Positions 4,872 through 19,952 of a stretch of DNA of 64,000 bases are shown here, piece after piece; position 1 is the first letter of the stretch; every line of letters starts with the position of its first letter. Under the pieces are notes generated by a model. It was not told where the DNA came from, did not search any database, and saw only the letters and a list, made by a program, of their open reading frames with translations. Position numbers and translations under genes: made by a program. The DNA is taken from positions 124,001 through 188,000 of the forward strand of contig CACEGG010000001.1 in NCBI GenBank assembly GCA_902559035.1. The letters are read 5' to 3'. Source of the DNA: an uncultured Bacteroidota bacterium (GTDB lineage: Bacteria > Bacteroidota > Bacteroidia > Flavobacteriales > Flavobacteriaceae).

Positions 4872-7298
4872 ATGAATTTAATAGATGTCATTGTTCCCCT
4901 TCCAATTAGAACAACTTTTACCTACATAATCAATAAAGAAGAATTTGAATTTATTGATATAGGTTTTCGTGTTATGGTTCCTTTTGGAAAATCTAAGTTT
5001 ATTACTGGTATTGTTGTCAAAAAACACCAAAATTCTCCAATTAATTACAATCCTAAAGAAATTGAGTTTATAATTGATAAAACTCCCATTGTTACTCTAA
5101 AACAATTAAGTTTTTTTCAATGGATTTCAGATTATTATATGTGCCCCCTTGGTTTAGTTTTAAAAGTGGCTGTACCTAAGCTTTTGTTGTTAAAAAGTGA
5201 AAGTGAAATAGTTTTATTAAAAAAAGATATAAAATCGCTGAAATTGTCTGTTAATGCAGTTAATATTTTTAATTATTTAATTAAATATCAAAGAGTTTCT
5301 TTAAAAGACTTAACAGGAATATTAGATAAAAAAAATATTAGTTCAGAAATAAATGAATTAATTATTAATTCAATTATAACAGTCAAAGAAAAGGTTTATG
5401 ATTATTTCAAACCAAAGTTTCATACAACCATCTTGATAAATTCTATTTTAAACTCGTCAGAAATAATTAAACAATTACAAAAAAAGAAATCTCAACTTAA
5501 AGTATTTAATTGGGTTGGTCAAAATTCTGATAATAAGAACTTAACCATTAATGAAATAATTAATAAATGTAATGTATCGAGGCAAACAGTACTCAATTTG
5601 ATTAATTCAAATATTTTATTAAAAGTTAATAAAACTGTAAATCGTTCTCAGTTTTTTGTTGATGGTATTATAAAACCAAAAAAACTTAGTAATGATCAGA
5701 ATAAGGCTTACAACGAAATTAAATCAAGTTTTGAACTGAAAAATGTTTCTCTTTTGCATGGAGTTACATCCTCTGGTAAAACAGAGATTTATGTAAAATT
5801 AATCGCTGAACAAATAGAAAAAAATAATCAGGTTTTATATTTAGTACCTGAAATTGCTTTAACAACACAATTAATAAGCAGATTAAAAAAATATTTTGGA
5901 GAAAATTTATTGGTTTATCACTCTAAATATACTCTTGAACAAAGAACTGAAATATGGAAAACAGTTCTCGATAAACCTGGAAAAATTATTTTAGGCGCGA
6001 GATCTTCTATTTTTTTGCCTTTTAAAAGTCTAAGCCTAATAATTGTAGACGAGGAACATGAAAATGCATATAAGCAGTTTAATCCATCTCCAAGGTATCA
6101 TGCAAGAGATTCTGCAATTTATATTGCAATGCTTCATAAAGCAAAAACCTTACTTGGTTCAGCTACACCTAGTGTCGAGTCTTATTTTAACGCAGTATCA
6201 AATAAATATGGATTGATAAAACTTGATAAAAGATTTAATAATGTTAAACTTCCAAATATTCTTCTAAAGGATTTGAAAGAGTCAACAGCAAAGAAAAAAA
6301 TGATAGGAAATTTTTCTGAACATTTGATGGCCAATATTAAGTCAACTTTAAGTAATGGAAAACAAGTCATAATTTTTCAAAATAGGAGAGGATACTCCCC
6401 ATATCAAGAATGTGAATCTTGTGGATATGTTTTTGATTGTAAAAATTGCGATGTTTCTTTAACATATCACAGAATTTCAAATGAATTAAAATGTCATCAT
6501 TGTGGTTACACTTCAAAAAGTGAGAGTAAGTGTATTAAGTGTTCATCCACTTCGTTAATTAAAAAAGGTTTAGGAACTCAACAGGTTGTTGAAGAATTGA
6601 AAAATTATTTTCCCAATTACAGGGTTGAACGAATGGATCAAGATTCAACAAAAAGTAAAAATTCTTTTTTGAAATTAATAAATGAGTTTGAGGAAAATAA
6701 ATTTCAAATATTAGTAGGCACACAGATGTTAAGTAAGGGCTTGGATTTTAAAAATGTAGATTTAGTAGGAGTAATTAATGCAGATAATTTGATTTATTTT
6801 CCTGATTTTAGAGCTCAGGAAAAATGTTTTCAATTGATTCAACAAGTTGCCGGAAGATCGGGTAGGTCTAAAAGTCAGGGAAAAGTAATAGTTCAAACTT
6901 ATAATCCAAATCACAAGGTTATGCTAAAAATAAAAAGCAGTGACTATTTGGGTATGTTTAATGATCAATTAAGCGAAAGGCATACGTTCGACTACCCACC
7001 TTACTCAAGAATTATAAAAATTATTTTGAAAGATAAAAATATTGATAAAATAAAAATCAGTGCAACATGGCTTTCCGAAAGCTTAAAAACAAATTTTGAC
7101 AAATTTATTTTTGGACCTGAATTTCCATTAATTCCCAGAGTTCAAAATAAGTATATTAATAATATTCAAATAAAAATTCCAACAGATTTAAACCTCAAAA
7201 AAAGCAAAAAAATTATTTTAAAAACCATAAGTAAATTTGAATCCATTTCTTTATTTAGGAGTACTCAGATTTCCATTGATGTTGACCCTTACAATTAA
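4872..7298 (+). CDS. priA: Primosomal protein N' (replication restart helicase)
   Basis: PriA recognises stalled forks and reloads the replicative helicase. The 808-residue protein has an N-terminal DNA-binding domain (about 1-110), a winged-helix region (about 220-270), helicase motif I LLHGVTSSGKTEIYVKL near 297, motif II LIIVDEEHENAYKQ near 394, and a zinc-binding insertion with four Cys pairs (CESC, CKNC, CHHC, CIKC) near 515-565. Motifs V and VI follow (GTQMLSKGLDF, QVAGRSGRS). It is likely monocistronic, because the ribosomal operon behind it has its own promoter. The ATG at 4872 fits the family N-terminus IDVIVPLPIRTTFTY. Confidence 0.96.
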   Translation: MNLIDVIVPLPIRTTFTYIINKEEFEFIDIGFRVMVPFGKSKFITGIVVKKHQNSPINYNPKEIEFIIDKTPIVTLKQLSFFQWISDYYMCPLGLVLKVAVPKLLLLKSESEIVLLKKDIKSLKLSVNAVNIFNYLIKYQRVSLKDLTGILDKKNISSEINELIINSIITVKEKVYDYFKPKFHTTILINSILNSSEIIKQLQKKKSQLKVFNWVGQNSDNKNLTINEIINKCNVSRQTVLNLINSNILLKVNKTVNRSQFFVDGIIKPKKLSNDQNKAYNEIKSSFELKNVSLLHGVTSSGKTEIYVKLIAEQIEKNNQVLYLVPEIALTTQLISRLKKYFGENLLVYHSKYTLEQRTEIWKTVLDKPGKIILGARSSIFLPFKSLSLIIVDEEHENAYKQFNPSPRYHARDSAIYIAMLHKAKTLLGSATPSVESYFNAVSNKYGLIKLDKRFNNVKLPNILLKDLKESTAKKKMIGNFSEHLMANIKSTLSNGKQVIIFQNRRGYSPYQECESCGYVFDCKNCDVSLTYHRISNELKCHHCGYTSKSESKCIKCSSTSLIKKGLGTQQVVEELKNYFPNYRVERMDQDSTKSKNSFLKLINEFEENKFQILVGTQMLSKGLDFKNVDLVGVINADNLIYFPDFRAQEKCFQLIQQVAGRSGRSKSQGKVIVQTYNPNHKVMLKIKSSDYLGMFNDQLSERHTFDYPPYSRIIKIILKDKNIDKIKISATWLSESLKTNFDKFIFGPEFPLIPRVQNKYINNIQIKIPTDLNLKKSKKIILKTISKFESISLFRSTQISIDVDPYN

Positions 7299-8534: not shown

Positions 8535-9899
8535 ATGTCAAAATCACCTTCAAACCCCAAAGGAACAAGAGATTTTTTACCACTAGAGCTTTCTAAAAGA
8601 AACTATATTATTAATATTTTAAGAAAAAGTTTTAAAAACTTTGGTTTCTCTGAAATTGAAACACCTGCACTAGAAAAAAACTCGACTCTTTTAGGAAAGT
8701 ATGGTAACGAGGGAGACAGACTTGTTTTTAAAATTTTAAATTCAGGTGATAAAGTAAAAAAAGCTGATTTTAATTCATTAGAATCTAATGATTTATCATC
8801 TTTTACAAAATCTATTTCTGAGAAAGGTTTAAGATATGATTTAACCGTACCACTAGCAAGATTTGTTTCTCAACACCAAAACAATATTGCTTTTCCATTT
8901 AAACGTTTTCAAATACAAAATGTTTGGAGAGCTGATCGTCCTCAACATGGAAGATTTCAAGAATTTACTCAATGTGACGCAGATGTCGTGGGAAACAAGT
9001 CAATAATTCAAGAAATTGAGTTAATTAAATTATACGATTCTATTTTTAGTCAACTTGGTTTTAATGATTTAGTTTTTAAAATTAATCATAGAGGAATATT
9101 AAAAGGATTTGCTAATCACTTTGGTGCAAATGAAAAACTAACTCATTTTATAACATCCATAGACAAATTAGATAAAATCGGTATTGATAAAGTTATTCAC
9201 GAAATAAAATCTCAAATTAAAGACGTTCCAGTAGATGAGTTAAAAAAACTTCTTTCAGAAAGAGATGTAGAATTAGATTCCTTAAAATCTTTATTTAGTA
9301 ATAATGAAGATTCTTTAAATGCAGTAAACGATTTAACAGAAATATTTAATTTTTTCTCTGATCAAATAAAATTAAATAATGAGATTAGATTTGATTTAAC
9401 TTTGGCTAGAGGTTTAAATTATTACACAGGAACCATTATAGAAGTTTGTTCAAAAACTAATGATAGATTAGGTTCAATTGGTGGTGGAGGGAGATATGAT
9501 GACTTAACATCTTTATTTAATTTAAAAAATATAAGTGGCGTAGGTATTTCTTTTGGTTTGGATAGAATTTATTTGTTGATGGATGAAAACAATATGTTTC
9601 CTGCTCACTTAGATAAAAGTTTTGAATTTATGGTAGCTAATTTTGGTATTGAAAATTTGAAAAAGATTTCTCCCTACATTGACAAACTTAGGAATTTGAA
9701 CAATGAAATATTTATTTACCCAGATGATGTAAAACTTAACAAGCAATTTACTTTCGCAAATAAACATAATGCTTCTTTTGTAATAATTTATGGAGATAAT
9801 GAAAGAAAAAAAGATGTCGTTACATTAAAAAATATGCAAACAGGGGACCAATCCACACATGAACTCAGTAAGTTTGTCAGTATTATTAAAAAATTATAA
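8535..9899 (+). CDS. hisS: Histidine--tRNA ligase
   Basis: HisRS charges tRNA-His. The 454-residue class II synthetase shows motif 1 around PKGTRDFLPLELSKRNYI, motif 2 RFQIQNVWRADRPQHGRFQE with its conserved arginine, the histidine-specific motifs LARGLNYYTGTIIEV and SIGGGGRYDDL, and motif 3 GVGISFGLDRIY near residue 340. The anticodon-binding domain is the last ~90 residues. It faces the tRNA on the minus strand, separated by a hairpin. A near-consensus -7 box (GATATTTG, one mismatch) lies upstream near 8509. Confidence 0.96.
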   Translation: MSKSPSNPKGTRDFLPLELSKRNYIINILRKSFKNFGFSEIETPALEKNSTLLGKYGNEGDRLVFKILNSGDKVKKADFNSLESNDLSSFTKSISEKGLRYDLTVPLARFVSQHQNNIAFPFKRFQIQNVWRADRPQHGRFQEFTQCDADVVGNKSIIQEIELIKLYDSIFSQLGFNDLVFKINHRGILKGFANHFGANEKLTHFITSIDKLDKIGIDKVIHEIKSQIKDVPVDELKKLLSERDVELDSLKSLFSNNEDSLNAVNDLTEIFNFFSDQIKLNNEIRFDLTLARGLNYYTGTIIEVCSKTNDRLGSIGGGGRYDDLTSLFNLKNISGVGISFGLDRIYLLMDENNMFPAHLDKSFEFMVANFGIENLKKISPYIDKLRNLNNEIFIYPDDVKLNKQFTFANKHNASFVIIYGDNERKKDVVTLKNMQTGDQSTHELSKFVSIIKKL

Positions 9900-9907
9900 A
9901 AGAAAAA

Positions 9908-9933
9908 GGATTAAATCAAACTAGATTTAATCC
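9908..9933 (-). terminator. Hairpin terminator behind the tRNA (CAU)
   Basis: A perfect 10-bp inverted repeat, GGATTAAATC and GATTTAATCC, separated by 6 bases. On the minus strand it begins 15 bases after the tRNA 3' end and is followed by TTTTTCTTTT, a classical intrinsic terminator. On the plus strand the stem is followed by CTTATAA, a weaker stop for hisS. Confidence 0.75.
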
Positions 9934-9947
9934 CTTATAAAATGTTG

Positions 9948-10021
9948 TAGCGAGAGGGAGATTTGAACTCCCGACCTCCGGGTTATGAATCCGACGCTCT
10001 AACCAACTGAGCTATCTCGCC
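9948..10021 (-). tRNA. tRNA-Met (anticodon CAU)
   Basis: A 74-base cloverleaf. The acceptor stem GGCGAGA pairs with TCTCGCT (first pair G-U), the D arm is GCTC..GAGC, the anticodon loop TTCATAA gives CAU, and the T arm is GGGAG..CTCCC with loop TTCAAAT. The discriminator is A and CCA is not encoded. The anticodon stem has an A-C mismatch at its loop-closing pair. A CAU anticodon can mean elongator Met, initiator Met or lysidine-modified Ile. The paired 1-72 end argues against initiator; elongator Met is the best guess. Confidence 0.88.
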
Positions 10022-10036
10022 ATCTTAAAACGCGCG

Positions 10037-10067
10037 TAAATATATAAACAAATTAAATAGACTCAAA
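10037..10067 (-). promoter_or_regulatory. Promoter of the tRNA (CAU) gene
   Basis: On the minus strand, TTTG (10067-10064), a 19-base spacer and TATATTTA (10044-10037), which matches TAnnTTTG except for the last base. It lies 15 bases before the 5' end of the tRNA, the expected distance for a short leader. Confidence 0.6.
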
Positions 10068-10130
10068 CTAAGATTAAAAAATATTTAAAATTCTTTTTTA
10101 GAACTAATTTAATCTATATATTGCTACCAT

Positions 10131-10523
10131 ATGGAATTAAAAGAAAAGTTTGAAATTGAGTTTCCTATTCATGCATCTCCGCACATGCTGTACCAATACA
10201 TATCATCTGCTTCTGGATTATGCGAATGGTTTGCAGACGATGTAAATTCAAGAGGAAAATCTTTTTCTTTTATTTGGGATGGTTCTGAGGAAATAGCTGA
10301 GTTGATCTCATCTAAATCTGATACTTTTGTTAAATATAGGTGGATGGACGACTCTGAGGATCAAGATAAATGTTTTTTTGAAATTAGAATAGTTGTTGAT
10401 GAAATAACAAAAGATGTATCATTAATGGTTACTGATTTTGCCTTTGAGGATGAGATTGAAGAATCTAAAATGCTATGGGAAAGTCAGATTTCAGATTTAA
10501 AAAAATTAGTAGGTTCATCATAA
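10131..10523 (+). CDS. START-like (SRPBCC fold) domain protein, function unknown
   Basis: A 130-residue acidic protein resembling the START-like/AHSA1-type helix-grip proteins found across Bacteroidota. Features are FEIEFPIHASPHMLYQYISS at the N-terminus, the SGLCEWFADDV turn typical of activator-like SRPBCC proteins, and a C-terminal helix SKMLWESQISDLKKLV that would close the cavity. The ligand is unknown. It is 6 bp upstream of the aminotransferase gene and probably co-transcribed. Confidence 0.75.
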   Translation: MELKEKFEIEFPIHASPHMLYQYISSASGLCEWFADDVNSRGKSFSFIWDGSEEIAELISSKSDTFVKYRWMDDSEDQDKCFFEIRIVVDEITKDVSLMVTDFAFEDEIEESKMLWESQISDLKKLVGSS

Positions 10524-14440: not shown

Positions 14441-15748
14441 ATGGGTACTTTTTCTATAAAAGGTGGAGTTAAGCTAAAAGGAGAAGTGATTCCTCAAGGA
14501 GCCAAAAATGAAGCCCTACAAGTAATATGTGCCTGTCTGCTAACAGATAAAAAAGTTATTATTGATAATATTCCTGAAATTATAGATGTTCTTAAATTAA
14601 TTGATTTATTAAAATCACTTGGTGTGAAGGTTAATAAAATTAAAAAGAATAAATATTCTTTTTTAGCTGACAATGTAGACATTGATTATTTACAATCTGA
14701 AGAATTTAAGATAAAAGGAAGTAGTCTTAGGGGTTCAATAATGATTGTTGGCCCCCTTTTAGCTAGATTTGGAAAAGGTTTTATTCCAAAACCTGGTGGT
14801 GATAAAATTGGAAGGCGTAGGCTAGATACTCATTTTTTAGGATTCATTAAATTAGGTGCTTCTTTTAGATACAATAAAGAAGAATATTTTTACGGAGTTG
14901 AAGCGAATGTTTTGAAAGGTGACTATATTCTTCTTGACCAAGCTTCTGTTACAGGTACTGCAAATATTTTAATGGCTGCTGTTCTAGCCAAAGGAAAGAC
15001 AGAAATATATAATGCGGCATGTGAACCTTACATTCAGCAATTGTGTAAAATGTTAATCTCTATGGGTGCCAATATTAAAGGGATAGGCTCAAATTTATTA
15101 ATTATTGAAGGCGTTATGTCTTTGGGTGGAGTAGAGCACAAAGTTTTACCTGACATGATTGAAATTGGAAGTTGGATTGGTTTAGCAGCTATGACAAAAA
15201 GTGAAATAACTATCAAAAATGTTAGTTGGTCAAATCTTGGCCAGATTCCAAATGTTTTTAGGAAATTAGGAATAGAAATTAAAAAAGTAAACGATGATAT
15301 TTTTATTCCTGAGCATAAAAATGGATATGAAATTCAAAATTATATTGATGGTTCTGTTTTAACTGTTTCTGATGCACCTTGGCCTGGCTTTACACCTGAT
15401 TTACTAAGTATTGTTTTAGTCGTTGCTACACAAGCTAGAGGAAGTGTTCTGATTCATCAAAAAATGTTTGAGAGTAGATTATTTTTTGTAGATAAGTTAA
15501 TAGATATGGGTGCCAAAATTATTTTATGTGATCCTCATCGTGCTAATGTTATTGGACACAATTTTAAGTCTCAATTGAAATCCACAACCATGGTATCTCC
15601 AGATATTAGAGCTGGGATATCACTATTAATAGCTGCCCTATCTGCAACTGGTGAGAGCATCATTCATAATATTGAACAAATTGATCGTGGGTATGAAAAT
15701 ATTGATGTAAGGCTAGCTAAACTTGGTGCAAAAATTAAAAGAATTTAA
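14441..15748 (+). CDS. murA: UDP-N-acetylglucosamine 1-carboxyvinyltransferase, Cys-to-Asp type
   Basis: MurA transfers enolpyruvate from PEP to UDP-GlcNAc, the first committed step of peptidoglycan synthesis. The 435-residue EPSP-synthase-fold protein has KLKGEVIPQGAKNEALQ (catalytic Lys/Asn) at the N-terminus, GPLLARFGKGFIPKPGG, and ASVTGTANILMAAVLAKG. The active-site loop reads PGGDKIGRRRLDTH where E. coli has PGGCTIGARPVDLH, so the fosfomycin-target Cys115 is Asp. Asp is known to support activity and give fosfomycin resistance in other bacteria. The stop overlaps the DUF2805 stop (TTAA). Confidence 0.96.
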   Translation: MGTFSIKGGVKLKGEVIPQGAKNEALQVICACLLTDKKVIIDNIPEIIDVLKLIDLLKSLGVKVNKIKKNKYSFLADNVDIDYLQSEEFKIKGSSLRGSIMIVGPLLARFGKGFIPKPGGDKIGRRRLDTHFLGFIKLGASFRYNKEEYFYGVEANVLKGDYILLDQASVTGTANILMAAVLAKGKTEIYNAACEPYIQQLCKMLISMGANIKGIGSNLLIIEGVMSLGGVEHKVLPDMIEIGSWIGLAAMTKSEITIKNVSWSNLGQIPNVFRKLGIEIKKVNDDIFIPEHKNGYEIQNYIDGSVLTVSDAPWPGFTPDLLSIVLVVATQARGSVLIHQKMFESRLFFVDKLIDMGAKIILCDPHRANVIGHNFKSQLKSTTMVSPDIRAGISLLIAALSATGESIIHNIEQIDRGYENIDVRLAKLGAKIKRI

Positions 15749-16020
15749 TTTCTTTTTGATATTTTATTTCCAGTTGATCTTTGTCTGGAACATTTAAATC
15801 TATTTACTGAATCATCTCTAAGTTTGAAATGTTTAGTTTTTCTTCCTTGAACTCTTTTTCTCCAATGTGCAAAGCTTTTAGATTTCATTTCTCTCCTCAT
15901 CAGATCAATTACATTTTTTTCTGTTAATCCAAATTGAAATTTTATTGCCTCAAATGGTGTTCTATCTTCCCAGGCCATCTCTATAACTCTGTCAATTTCA
16001 ATTTGGTTAAGTTTAGTCAT
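15745..16020 (-). CDS. DUF2805 / TIGR03643 family small protein
   Basis: A 91-residue basic protein of the TIGR03643/DUF2805 family, which is found mostly in marine bacteria and has no known role. The conserved core is QIEIDRVIEMAWEDRTPFEA, then IKFQFGLTEKNVIDLMRREM and SKSFAHWRKRVQGRKTKH. The first half resembles a helix-turn-helix and the rest is strongly basic, so nucleic-acid binding is possible but is only inference. It is the last gene of the photolyase cluster; its ATG shares one base with the preceding stop (TAATG). Confidence 0.85.
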   Translation of the reverse strand: MTKLNQIEIDRVIEMAWEDRTPFEAIKFQFGLTEKNVIDLMRREMKSKSFAHWRKRVQGRKTKHFKLRDDSVNRFKCSRQRSTGNKISKRN

Positions 16021-17492
16021 TATAATTCAATTAAAAAATTATGGGCATCCATTAGTAGTTTTTCTTTTTTTAATGAATCCATTTTATCAAAACTACTAAT
16101 CAACATTCTCATTCTCGGATTTTTTTTAAAAAAATCTCTCTGTTTATCCATAAATGACCAAAAAAGTCCATCCCAAATATCACTCCATTCACCTTTTTTA
16201 TAGTCACTCATTTTTATAATATAATTACTACTGCTGATGTAAGGCTTGGTCGACATTAATCCTCCATCTGCAAATTGACTCATTCCATAAACATTAGGAA
16301 CCATGACCCAATCGTACGAATCTATAAATACTTCCATAAACCATTTATATACTTCATCTGGGTCAAACTCACATAAAACCATGAAGTTTCCCAAAATCAT
16401 TAGTCTTTCGATATGATTTCCATATGCACTTTTTTCTACTTTTTTTATCGTATCATCAATTGGATCAATTCCAGTGTTACCTTCATAAAAAGATTTGGGT
16501 ATTTTTCTATCAAAGTTCCAGTAGTTTTTTGTTCTTTCTTCAGAACCTTTCGAAACATAAACACCTCTAATAAATTCTCTCCAACCTATAATTTGTCTTA
16601 TAAATCCCTCTGTAGAGTTAATAGGTATTTTATTTTTTTTATAAAATTCTAATGAGTTTTTTACTACGTATTTTGGATTGAGTAGTCCAGAATTAATAAG
16701 TGGAGACAAAACACTATGATTTATAATAGATTCTCCAATAAGTACAGCATCTTCATAGATACCAAACTCATCAAATCTTGTTTTTAAAAAATCATTAAAC
16801 CATAAACGACTAGATTTAAAATCAGTTGGATATAATTGTATATCATTAATTATTCCAAAATTTTCAGTAAAGTTTTTTTGTACGTAATTAACAGAATCTC
16901 TATAGTTTTCACTTTGCAACTTAGAATAATCAAGAGTCGGAGTTTTTTTATTTTTTGGAAATTTATGCCTATTCATGTCATCATATGTCCATTTACCACC
17001 AACAGGATTTTGATCATTATCTATTAAAATTTTCATTTTTTTTCTTTGACTCTTATAGAATGATGTTTGAAACAATTTTTTTTTCTCTGGATTAAAAAAG
17101 GGTAATAAATCATCATGAGCTGTTAAAAAAAGAGGATTTTCTTCAATATTAATTTTGATATTATTTTTTTTGCATGATTTTTTTATTCTTTTTTCAAGCC
17201 AATTGTCCTCTGGATGATAAATATTAATTTCGGTAACATTTATTTTGTCTAAAAAAATTCTAATGTCTGACTCTTGGTTTTTAGTTTCTATATAAGCAAC
17301 ATCAATTCCTTTGCTGAGTAGATAATTCTCATAATTTTTCATTGAACTTCTGTGAAATACTAGCTTTTGTTTATGAAAATTGAATTGTTTAAAAAATAAA
17401 TGTTCTTCAATTAAATAAGTTTTTTTATTATTTAAAAATAAATTGCTTTCTTCAAAAAGCTGATTGGGAAATATTATATTTATGGAGTTCAA
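16020..17492 (-). CDS. Cryptochrome/photolyase-related protein lacking Fe-S cysteines
   Basis: A member of the deoxyribodipyrimidine-photolyase-related family (PhrB/FeS-BCP-like), about 490 residues. It has an N-terminal Rossmann domain (INIIFPNQLFEES) and the C-terminal FAD-binding region with STEGFIRQIIGWREFIRGVY, YGNHIERLMILGNF and VPNVYGMSQFADGG. Agrobacterium PhrB carries an [4Fe-4S] cluster on four Cys; this whole protein has only two Cys and the CxxC...C insertion is replaced by MSDYKKGEWSDIWDG. Start: the track ATG (17525) overlaps phr by 37 bases; a TTG at 17492 overlaps the phr stop as TTGA and fits the family N-terminus better. Substrate (6-4 photoproduct, single-stranded DNA, or signalling) is open. 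Confidence 0.85.
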   Translation of the reverse strand: MNSINIIFPNQLFEESNLFLNNKKTYLIEEHLFFKQFNFHKQKLVFHRSSMKNYENYLLSKGIDVAYIETKNQESDIRIFLDKINVTEINIYHPEDNWLEKRIKKSCKKNNIKINIEENPLFLTAHDDLLPFFNPEKKKLFQTSFYKSQRKKMKILIDNDQNPVGGKWTYDDMNRHKFPKNKKTPTLDYSKLQSENYRDSVNYVQKNFTENFGIINDIQLYPTDFKSSRLWFNDFLKTRFDEFGIYEDAVLIGESIINHSVLSPLINSGLLNPKYVVKNSLEFYKKNKIPINSTEGFIRQIIGWREFIRGVYVSKGSEERTKNYWNFDRKIPKSFYEGNTGIDPIDDTIKKVEKSAYGNHIERLMILGNFMVLCEFDPDEVYKWFMEVFIDSYDWVMVPNVYGMSQFADGGLMSTKPYISSSNYIIKMSDYKKGEWSDIWDGLFWSFMDKQRDFFKKNPRMRMLISSFDKMDSLKKEKLLMDAHNFLIEL

Positions 17493-18787
17493 TTGTTTAA
17501 AGCTTTTTTGTAAGTGATTAAACATCTTTCTCTTGCATATTTGTGATCTATTATTTCTTTTGCATAATCAGAATTTTTATATTCAGGAACCCATTTTTTT
17601 ATGTAGGTAAAATTTTTATCAAACTTTTTGATTTGCTCATGTGGATTAAATATTCTAAAATATGGTGCTGCATCAACTCCGCAACCAGCAACCCATTGCC
17701 AATTACCTACATTGCTTGCAGTCTCGTAATCGAAAAGTTTTTCTCTAAAATATGCTTCACCCCATCTCCAGTCTATTAATAAATGTTTGCACAAAAAACT
17801 TCCCACTAGCATTCTAACTCTATTATGCATAAAACCAGTATTATTTAATTCTCTCATTCCTGCATCAACGAACGGGTATCCAGTTTCACCATTACACCAT
17901 TTTTTAAAATCTTCTTCATTATTTATCCATTCAATTCTATCATACTTCGGTTTAAAACTTTTAGTTATTGTTTCTGGAAAATGATATAAAATTTGTTGAA
18001 AAAACTCTCTCCAAATTAATTCTTTTAAGTAAGTATTGTTATTTGATTGACTTGCTTTTTGTATTAATTTTCTTGTGCTAATAGTTCCAAATCTTAATTT
18101 GACTCCTGCTTTTGATGTAGCATCTAGTGAAGGGAAATTTCTTGTTGATTCATAGTTATCTATAATTTTTTCAGATATATTAGTTTTAAGAAAATTAATA
18201 TTAGATCTTATTAAGCTTATTTTACTACTAAATGGAATTGTATTTATATCAATAAAATTATCAATAAGCTTTTCAGAATTATACTCTTGAACTCCTAACT
18301 CATTCATTTTTTTTATCCATTTTTTAGAATAAGGAGTATATACTCTGTAGGGAGAACCGTCATCCTTAGTTATTTCGTTTTTTTCAAATAACACATGGTC
18401 TTTGAAATCAATAAATTCAATATTATTATCAATTAAAAACTTACTAATAGATGTATCTCTTTTTTTTGAGTAAGGTGTATAGTCTCTGTTAGTATAGACT
18501 TTATTTATTCTGTATTTTTTAATTAGTTCAGAAAAAACATCGATAGGTTTACCCTCCAGACAGTGTATTGATTTATTATTTTTTTGCAATACTACGTTCA
18601 TTTTCTCTATGGACTGATTAATGTAAAATAGTCTGTGATCGTTTTCTTTTAATTTGCTAATGATGTTATGATCATAAATGAAAATAGGTAATACTGGGTG
18701 ATCATTGTTTAGTGCATGAAATAGTCCACAGTTATCATCTAATCTTAGATCTCTTCTAAACCAAAATATGGATATTTTTTTATTCAA
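17489..18787 (-). CDS. Deoxyribodipyrimidine photolyase (class I cryptochrome/photolyase)
   Basis: A 432-residue blue-light repair enzyme that would split cyclobutane pyrimidine dimers using FADH. The antenna domain begins KKISIFWFRRDLRLDDN. The FAD domain contains LKELIWREFFQQILYHFPE, ETGYPFVDAGMRELNNTGFM and HNRVRMLVGSFLCKHLLIDW, then SNVGNWQWVAGCGVDAAPYF. Tryptophans equivalent to the E. coli electron-transfer triad appear present (KKWCNG, LIDWRW, VGNWQW). The start is TTG and directly abuts the stop of the SDR gene (TAATTG). A cryptochrome function cannot be excluded. Confidence 0.92.
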   Translation of the reverse strand: MNKKISIFWFRRDLRLDDNCGLFHALNNDHPVLPIFIYDHNIISKLKENDHRLFYINQSIEKMNVVLQKNNKSIHCLEGKPIDVFSELIKKYRINKVYTNRDYTPYSKKRDTSISKFLIDNNIEFIDFKDHVLFEKNEITKDDGSPYRVYTPYSKKWIKKMNELGVQEYNSEKLIDNFIDINTIPFSSKISLIRSNINFLKTNISEKIIDNYESTRNFPSLDATSKAGVKLRFGTISTRKLIQKASQSNNNTYLKELIWREFFQQILYHFPETITKSFKPKYDRIEWINNEEDFKKWCNGETGYPFVDAGMRELNNTGFMHNRVRMLVGSFLCKHLLIDWRWGEAYFREKLFDYETASNVGNWQWVAGCGVDAAPYFRIFNPHEQIKKFDKNFTYIKKWVPEYKNSDYAKEIIDHKYARERCLITYKKALNN

Positions 18788-19486
18788 TTATCCAAGATTA
18801 ATAATTGACATGCCACCATCTACACCAAATGTTTGACCAGTAACCCAAGAACTTTTATCACTTAATAAAAAGGCAGTTGAATTTGCGATATCGACAGGGC
18901 TTCCACACCTTTTTAATGGATGTCTTTCACCAGCTTTTTCTTTTTTTAAATCATTGTTTAGGAATCTTGATGCCATTGGAGTATCAGTCAATGATGGCGC
19001 TATTACATTTACTCTAATGTTGGGTGCATATTCAGCAGCCAAGGATCTTGCAAAGCCTTCAATAGCACCTTTAGAAGCAGAAACACTAGTATGAAACGGC
19101 ATCCCTACCTTGACAGCTACTGTGCTATATAAAACTATACTTGAATTTCCAGATTTTTTTAAGTTATTAATTACTTTCTGTAAAATTTTAACCATGGATA
19201 GAAAATTAATATTTAGATCTTCTTCAAAAGTTGTAGATTTAATACTTCTAAATGGTCTTAAATTTATACTTCCAGGTAAATAAACAAAACCATGTAATTC
19301 CTCAGGTACCAATTCATCATTAAAATCTGAAGCAATTGCATCATATTGTATATGATTTACATTTAAATCTTTTAAATTTTCTTTATTTCTTGAGGCTACA
19401 TAAACATTATAGTCATGTTGAACAAGTCTTATTGTTTCTAATCCTATTCCAGTTGATCCACCGATAAATAATATATTTTTTTTCAT
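18788..19486 (-). CDS. SDR-family protein without the catalytic tyrosine
   Basis: A 232-residue short-chain dehydrogenase/reductase fold. The nucleotide-binding turn ILFIGGSTGIGLETIRL is intact, a serine lies in SSIVLYSTVAVKVGMPFH, and the C-terminal GQTFGVDGGM is typical. The YxxxK active site reads VSASK, so the proton-donating Tyr is Val while the Lys stays. In my recollection the SDRs next to photolyase genes share this loss. It may bind NAD(P) without redox chemistry or act by another residue. I start at MKKNILFIGG (19486), 4 bp after the SRPBCC stop; an ATG at 19504 is also possible. Confidence 0.85.
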   Translation of the reverse strand: MKKNILFIGGSTGIGLETIRLVQHDYNVYVASRNKENLKDLNVNHIQYDAIASDFNDELVPEELHGFVYLPGSINLRPFRSIKSTTFEEDLNINFLSMVKILQKVINNLKKSGNSSIVLYSTVAVKVGMPFHTSVSASKGAIEGFARSLAAEYAPNIRVNVIAPSLTDTPMASRFLNNDLKKEKAGERHPLKRCGSPVDIANSTAFLLSDKSSWVTGQTFGVDGGMSIINLG

Positions 19487-19490
19487 TGCT

Positions 19491-19952
19491 TTAAAGTTTT
19501 CCAAAAAGTTGGTTAAGTTTATTTTCTCTAAATTGAAATATTAGTTTTAGTTTATTTTTAACAAAAATTGGATGTGCCAATTGTCCTAAAATACCAAAAG
19601 GTAGTTTATAATCAACAATGTCAACCATTTCTATTCCTCCATCAATTTCTTTAATAAAATGTTTGTGGTGCCAAAGAGAATATGGACCAAACCTTTGCTC
19701 ATCAACGAAGTACTCTTTATCTACTACATGAGTAATTTCGGTAACCCATTTAAGATTTAATCCTAGTATAGGACTAACTTTGTATTGAATTATTTGACCG
19801 GGGAAAATTTTTTTGTCAGCGCCACTCAATATTCGAAAATTCATGTATGCGGGCGTTATTTCAGTAAGATTTTTTGGGTTACTTAAAAAATTCCAAGCTT
19901 TTTCAATAGTTATTGGAAGTTTTTGACTTGTTTTAATTTGATATAATTTCAA
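19491..19952 (-). CDS. SRPBCC (polyketide-cyclase-like) protein
   Basis: A helix-grip SRPBCC protein of about 153 residues, the first gene of the photolyase cluster. It contains QKLPITIEKAWNFLSNPKNL, ITPAYMNFRILSG, VTEITHVVDKEYFVDEQRFG and the hydrophobic MVDIVDYKLPFGILGQLAHP. Relatives bind hydrophobic ligands; the ligand here is unknown. The track's start (19991) is a TTG that would add 13 residues; a TTG at 19952 gives the family-like N-terminus MKLYQIKTSQKLPI and leaves a 49-bp divergent promoter gap to the DUF2911 gene. Confidence 0.8.
   Translation of the reverse strand: MKLYQIKTSQKLPITIEKAWNFLSNPKNLTEITPAYMNFRILSGADKKIFPGQIIQYKVSPILGLNLKWVTEITHVVDKEYFVDEQRFGPYSLWHHKHFIKEIDGGIEMVDIVDYKLPFGILGQLAHPIFVKNKLKLIFQFRENKLNQLFGKL

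Follow-up and report, generated by a model that had tools for sequence, protein, structure and literature searches.

The window, a 64,000-nucleotide stretch of DNA from a marine flavobacterium, encodes an SDR in which valine occupies the place of the catalytic tyrosine of the YxxxK motif, and the gene lies inside a photolyase cluster. This raises the question of whether the protein has given up its chemistry or performs it with another residue, and what its substrate would then be. An earlier note, made from the sequence alone, took it for a protein that can hold NAD(P)H and lacks a proton donor, and suggested that it could be a sensor, a chaperone for flavin reduction, or a different enzyme. 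The last is the best of these options, and the interpretation as a whole is partly supported. Conservation across its relatives indicates that the SDR is probably a working reductase and not a broken copy.

The SDR gene and its photolyase cluster

Five genes follow one another on the minus strand, in the order SRPBCC, SDR, photolyase, DPRP-type and DUF2805/TIGR03643:

19491-19991, minus strand: SRPBCC-like protein, opening the trio; its PF03364 match is weak and falls short of the curated cut-off; immediately precedes the SDR gene in 79/80 Flavobacteriia loci
18788-19486, minus strand: classical-type SDR without the Tyr, 232 aa, middle gene of the trio; from the ORF and its translation, Pfam and an AlphaFold2 model
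17489-18787, minus strand: DNA photolyase (PHR), closing the trio; PF03441 6e-73, PF00875 3e-40; 80/80 loci
16020-17525, minus strand: DPRP-type photolyase/cryptochrome-related protein, overlapping the end of the PHR gene; PF04244 2e-50
15745-16020, minus strand: DUF2805/TIGR03643 protein, at the end of the cluster; PF10985 8e-36, TIGR03643 1e-34

The SDR ORF is counted from an ATG, with an alternative in-frame TTG start possible at 19504, and its stop codon is directly followed by the TTG start of the photolyase gene. Since the genes are separated by four bases, by none, or overlap, this spacing leads us to read the cluster as one operon.

The setting in a photolyase cluster, as the earlier note had it, recurs well outside the window. 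The SRPBCC-SDR-photolyase trio is fixed in the 80 loci from named genomes, the photolyase gene following the SDR in all of them and the SRPBCC gene preceding it in all but one. Among 65 other loci, made up of deeper Bacteroidota and four plasmids, a photolyase or DPRP-type gene lies within 8.5 kb of the SDR in 26, and the SDR family is also found without a nearby photolyase. The DPRP-type gene is present in 8/80 Flavobacteriia loci and 13/65 of the others. A PF03441 photolyase is encoded by 73/80 SDR-bearing Bacteroidota genomes versus 83/217 without the SDR, counts that ignore shared ancestry.

Several other features of these neighbourhoods are recorded here. Distant Bacteroidota also have the DUF2805/TIGR03643 gene close to photolyase genes and the SDR (8/65 loci). 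A strongly conserved core, VDEQRFGPYALWHHKHF, runs mostly unchanged through 21 sequences of the SRPBCC partner, whose Pfam match lies below the cut-off and which seems to be an uncharacterised family. In five loci (L214, L227, L247, L258, L260) a TetR (TetR_C_23) gene is accompanied by an ABC1-kinase-like gene in the vicinity of the SDR or photolyase. One contig filed as Candidatus Nitrotoga (L058) bears a Flavobacterium-type trio; a search centred on its genome led back to those same Bacteroidota genomes, which makes it probable that the record is misassigned and very probable that it is a Flavobacterium.

The SDR itself matches PF13561 (1e-38) and PF00106 (3e-26). Its AlphaFold2 model (mean pLDDT 95.7) has the classical SDR fold, with a TM score of ~0.9 to classical SDRs and 6y4d and 5ff9 as the nearest folds. 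The glycine motif that the earlier note saw as retained is present as GGSTGIG (G9, G13, G15), corresponding to the GxxxGxG cofactor motif. In SDRs the residue after beta-2 is a guide to the cofactor, arginine at this position pointing to NADPH. Arg33 is found there in 102/105 family members, which suggests that the family uses NADPH. The NNAG motif of classical SDRs is absent, being replaced by YxPG[ST]INL in the window's subgroup and by other forms in a deeper subgroup. The active-site stretch reads LYST122VAVKVGMPFH132TSV135SASK139, in which the following codons matter here:

19121-19123, minus strand: Thr122 codon, catalytic Ser position; T in 76 and S in 29 of 105
19091-19093, minus strand: His132 codon (CAT), K-7, the proposed acid; invariant in 105/105 and 67/67 relatives, with the spacing of FabI Tyr156/Lys163 (PMC10864336)
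19082-19084, minus strand: Val135 codon (GTT), K-4, the canonical catalytic Tyr position; V/I/T in 105/105 and 67/67 relatives
19070-19072, minus strand: Lys139 codon (AAA), catalytic Lys position; invariant in both alignments
18920-18922, minus strand: His189 codon, in the lid region; 66/67

The codon thus bears out the claim of valine for tyrosine, and the catalytic Tyr of YxxxK is absent from the window's SDR and from every relative aligned.

Age of the tyrosine loss

Relatives were gathered from the same genus and family, from the 80 loci of named bacterial genomes, almost all of them Flavobacteriia, and from sampled Bacteroidota, of which 82/297 genomes match at E<=1e-45, two of the 82 being counted as canonical relatives only. 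The named loci were retrieved via two peptide patterns, and because one of these spans the Tyr position, part of that sample is biased. Across 105 aligned members the Tyr position holds V in 92, I in 12 and T in one, never Y, and His132, Ser134 and Lys139 each occur in all 105. The 67 deeper members, found by profile, hold V in 33, I in 33 and T in one; His132 is again invariant, the other catalytic residues are retained (K139 and T/S122 in 67/67, N94 in 62/67), and His189 is missing from a single sequence. Relatives on Mesorhizobium, Methylobacterium and Legionella plasmids show the same Tyr-less pattern. The canonical Tyr is present in those SDR paralogs in the genome of the window's SDR that have a readable motif. 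Plasmid matches from Thermus, Rhodococcus, Phyllobacterium, Antarctobacter and Caballeronia do not belong to the family, being canonical SDRs with Tyr, and were used as outgroups.

A tree built from 48 sequences of the Tyr-less family and 19 canonical SDRs gathers the family on a single branch with support of 100/98, and of 97 after the motif columns are taken out. The closest within-genus pairs have dN/dS values of about 0.03-0.09, and 117 pairs give a median of 0.10, dS being saturated in many of them; close SDR copies evolve under strong purifying selection. The restriction to V, I or T throughout the family, the single clade and the low dN/dS together imply that the loss is old, occurred once on the tree, and affects a protein under selection. 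The alignments and tree place the replacement of the canonical Tyr by a small aliphatic residue in the family ancestor. This agrees with the reasoning of the earlier note that a Tyr missing throughout would mark an ancient and functional loss. Among the papers searched, none dealt with a Tyr-less SDR near photolyases.

The relatives also refute a sequencing error, a pseudogene or a decaying copy, which one missing Tyr and nothing else might have brought to mind. The same residue class is found in all relatives, from many independent genomes, close-pair dN/dS is below 0.1 and the frames are open, leaving this explanation a negligible probability. As a separate observation, one relative (G012:C13) has SDR copies at 6180-6872 and 9699-10388 on opposite strands, with a third copy on another contig.

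Candidate proton donors and related enzymes

Loss of the tyrosine need not abolish activity. E. coli FabG with Y151F, Y151S, Y151I or Y151R is still active in vivo, the triple mutant S138A/Y151F/K155A is also active, and FabG mutants are active with ACP substrates or in vivo (PMC7973133). Because Y151-replaced FabG works, a missing Tyr does not prove an SDR inactive. Natural Tyr-less SDRs are listed in the same paper; human peroxisomal enoyl-CoA reductase, for instance, has the SDR fold with Phe in place of the Tyr (PMC7973133). A Vibrio vulnificus NADPH-binding SDR likewise has the fold and no Tyr, but its Lys is missing too (PMC7973133), whereas Lys is invariant in the window's family.

These results bear on the possibility that the SDR is a catalytically silent NADPH-binding protein acting as a redox sensor, scaffold or photolyase helper. 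Such a protein would be consistent with the family-wide loss of the canonical acid alongside a kept cofactor motif and Lys, and with an operon in which SRPBCC and photolyase are tightly coupled. We nevertheless regard it as unlikely, given that FabG keeps its activity despite Tyr loss (PMC7973133), that some family members have no photolyase nearby, and that H132, K139, Asn94, Ser/Thr122 and H189 are among the family's most conserved positions, beyond the needs of cofactor binding.

The earlier note had allowed for a displaced Tyr close to the Lys and nicotinamide. No Tyr is conserved across the 105 and 67 aligned members: Tyr69, in the place of the first Asn of NNAG, was rejected with N/H/F/C in 20/67, and Tyr120 with Phe at position 120 in 82/105. 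Near the motif, just one side chain is both invariant and chemically suited to the role, that of His132, which lies seven residues ahead of the Lys. E. coli FabI places its catalytic Tyr156 at the same distance from Lys163 (PMC10864336). In 6y4d and 4bms, the closest SDRs of solved structure, K-7 is occupied by His and the Tyr is present as well; in a close relative of 5ff9 this residue, His170, is among those contacting docked NADPH (PMC10499049), and a review of imine-reducing SDRs admits histidine as a proton donor (PMC7540600). Judging by the alignment, His132 would face the nicotinamide. The claim that the proton donor is lacking therefore stands for the canonical Tyr and is doubtful beyond it, with an invariant His at the position of the FabI Tyr.

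The best sequence and fold matches, 5ff9 (noroxomaritidine/norcraugsodine reductase), 6y4d (a Zephyranthes SDR) and 4bms (a Ralstonia ADH), share with the window's SDR the Rossmann fold, the His at K-7, and the Lys and Ser/Thr in place, but keep the catalytic Tyr and have ~28-30% identity in the fold comparison. We know of no photolyase linkage for these SDRs. FabI-type enoyl-ACP reductases, which are divergent SDRs, resemble the family in having an acid at K-7 plus the Lys (PMC10864336). They differ in that the acid is Tyr in FabI and His in the family (67/67), and the profiles that give the family its highest scores are those of classical SDRs.

A reductase of the enoyl or dienoyl type whose substrates are unsaturated or photo-oxidised lipids, with His132 used like the K-7 Tyr of FabI, would make direct use of this shared position (PMC10864336). 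The Phe of peroxisomal enoyl-CoA reductase (PMC7973133) and the enone/imine reductase activity of 5ff9 (PMC7540600) are in keeping with it, as are furan-fatty-acid genes (FAD oxidoreductase, DUF1365, CFA synthase-like) at the Mesorhizobium and Legionella plasmid loci. Lipid genes, however, occur in only about 3/65 loci outside Flavobacteriia and were seen in none of the Flavobacteriia loci, and the SDR lacks the YxxMxxxK motif, which makes a lipid substrate rather improbable.

SDRs that adjoin photolyases are also known from proteobacteria, where RSP_1087, PME6630 and PSPTO_1119 belong to phrB/ChrR or LitR operons associated with light or singlet oxygen (PMC9758184, PMC5507510). We judged this type from three SDRs of UfaD-containing loci, two in phrB operons and one near a ChrR/sigma pair. 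They carry YGASK or YGPTK together with NAG, and score ~75 bits with the family profile versus >180 for family members. Orthology to the RSP_1087/PME6630 type was rejected on these motifs and this score, which mark it as a different, canonical SDR. Photolyase-neighbouring SDRs, the set that the earlier note would have aligned, are consequently not one family, and since the window's family is not orthologous to the phrB-operon SDR, the light-induction data for that operon are not transferable. Furan fatty acids showed no detectable change when RSP_1087 was deleted (PMC7380195).

The gammaproteobacterial operon runs phrB, NTF2-like, SDR, FAD oxidoreductase, DUF1365 and CFA synthase, and its SDR is canonical (YGASK, NAG). 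In photolyase operons, the canonical SDR of gammaproteobacteria (L316 5291-6001, L317 4270-5001) thus comes with an NTF2-like protein, and the Tyr-less SDR of Flavobacteriia with SRPBCC; both partners are presumably small and ligand-binding.

Pterin and flavin genes and the proposed substrate

Genes of cofactor metabolism recur beside the SDR in the 65 other loci, with a flavin-reductase-like gene nearby in 15, FolE in 10 and PTPS in 7; Pfam confirms the three identities. Seven genomes from four families (L217, L222, L229, L246, L249, L255, L261) have PTPS and FolE right beside the SDR, the pair lying on the other strand in L249. FolE alone adjoins the SDR in a further two families, at L257 and at L234, of which L234 belongs to the deeper subgroup. 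The series at L246 is PTPS, FolE, SDR, flavin reductase and photolyase. The linked PTPS has a motif of the GKCNNPN-HGHNY type. The PTPS/FolE linkage is a minority arrangement, absent in the Flavobacteriia loci examined, and the genome from which the window comes carries FolE and PTPS on other contigs.

Sepiapterin reductase, likewise an SDR, follows GTP cyclohydrolase I and PTPS in the tetrahydrobiopterin pathway. The seven loci in which FolE and PTPS adjoin the SDR are reminiscent of this arrangement, but the sepiapterin reductase profile TIGR01500 reached its curated cut-off in none of the 15 genomes tested, in which other SDRs ranked highest. The linked PTPS had no match in two SDR-bearing genomes (G028, G134), and the linked FolE is the sole copy in five genomes, where it must also serve folate. 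Pterin-dependent hydroxylases are found in 53/80 SDR-bearing genomes versus 44/217 without the SDR, counts that again ignore shared ancestry; none was found in the window's own genome, which is 88.6% complete. Pterins are tied to light responses elsewhere: light-inducible loci of pseudomonads (proteobacteria) join phrB and cryB with folE, folX and folM (PMC9758184), and DASH cryptochromes use pterins as antenna pigments (PMC3546692).

We tentatively propose that the SDR is an NADPH-dependent reductase in which His132 stands in for the lost Tyr and whose substrate is a reduced pterin or a related light-linked cofactor, a reading we favour while holding it to be somewhat short of probable. Lys139 would still hold the nicotinamide ribose, and His132, at the site that FabI-type enoyl reductases use for their catalytic Tyr, would act as acid or substrate anchor. 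The substrate may be a small light-related cofactor, with a pterin from GTP cyclohydrolase I and 6-pyruvoyl-tetrahydropterin synthase as first choice and a flavin-type substrate as second. The linkage of FolE, PTPS and photolyase, taken with the pseudomonad loci (PMC9758184) and the DASH antenna (PMC3546692), puts the pterin first; confidence in it is modest because the linked FolE is often the sole copy, two genomes give no match to the linked PTPS, TIGR01500 is negative, and the genomic correlation with pterin-dependent hydroxylases has to be reckoned with. The adjoining photolyase or cryptochrome could use the reduced pterin as its antenna or cofactor, and the SRPBCC partner could bind the ligand or pass it on.

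Against this proposal may be set an ordinary carbonyl reductase with a dispensable Tyr and an unrelated substrate, linked to the photolyase through light-stress co-regulation only. The active Y151-replaced FabG (PMC7973133) and the mixed neighbours (flavin reductase, ABC1 kinase, TetR, MarR, DUF2805) would be compatible with such an enzyme, but it leaves the strict invariance of His132 and the family-wide exclusion of Tyr unexplained, and we consider it doubtful.

The proposal of a reductase that uses His132 can be taken further. In its most specific form, the family would have shifted its proton donor from Tyr at K-4 to His at K-7 and would supply a reduced pterin chromophore or cofactor to photolyases and cryptochromes with SRPBCC as ligand carrier, a combination that we advance as speculative and, taken whole, unlikely. 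If the SDR is active, it would represent an SDR family that has dispensed with the textbook Tyr in the course of natural evolution and is widespread enough to test how chemistry is relocated within an active site. If its substrate is a pterin or flavin, the trio operon of Flavobacteriia would be tied to the question of the photolyase antenna or cofactor, and two uncharacterised families, the SDR and its SRPBCC partner, would gain a function.
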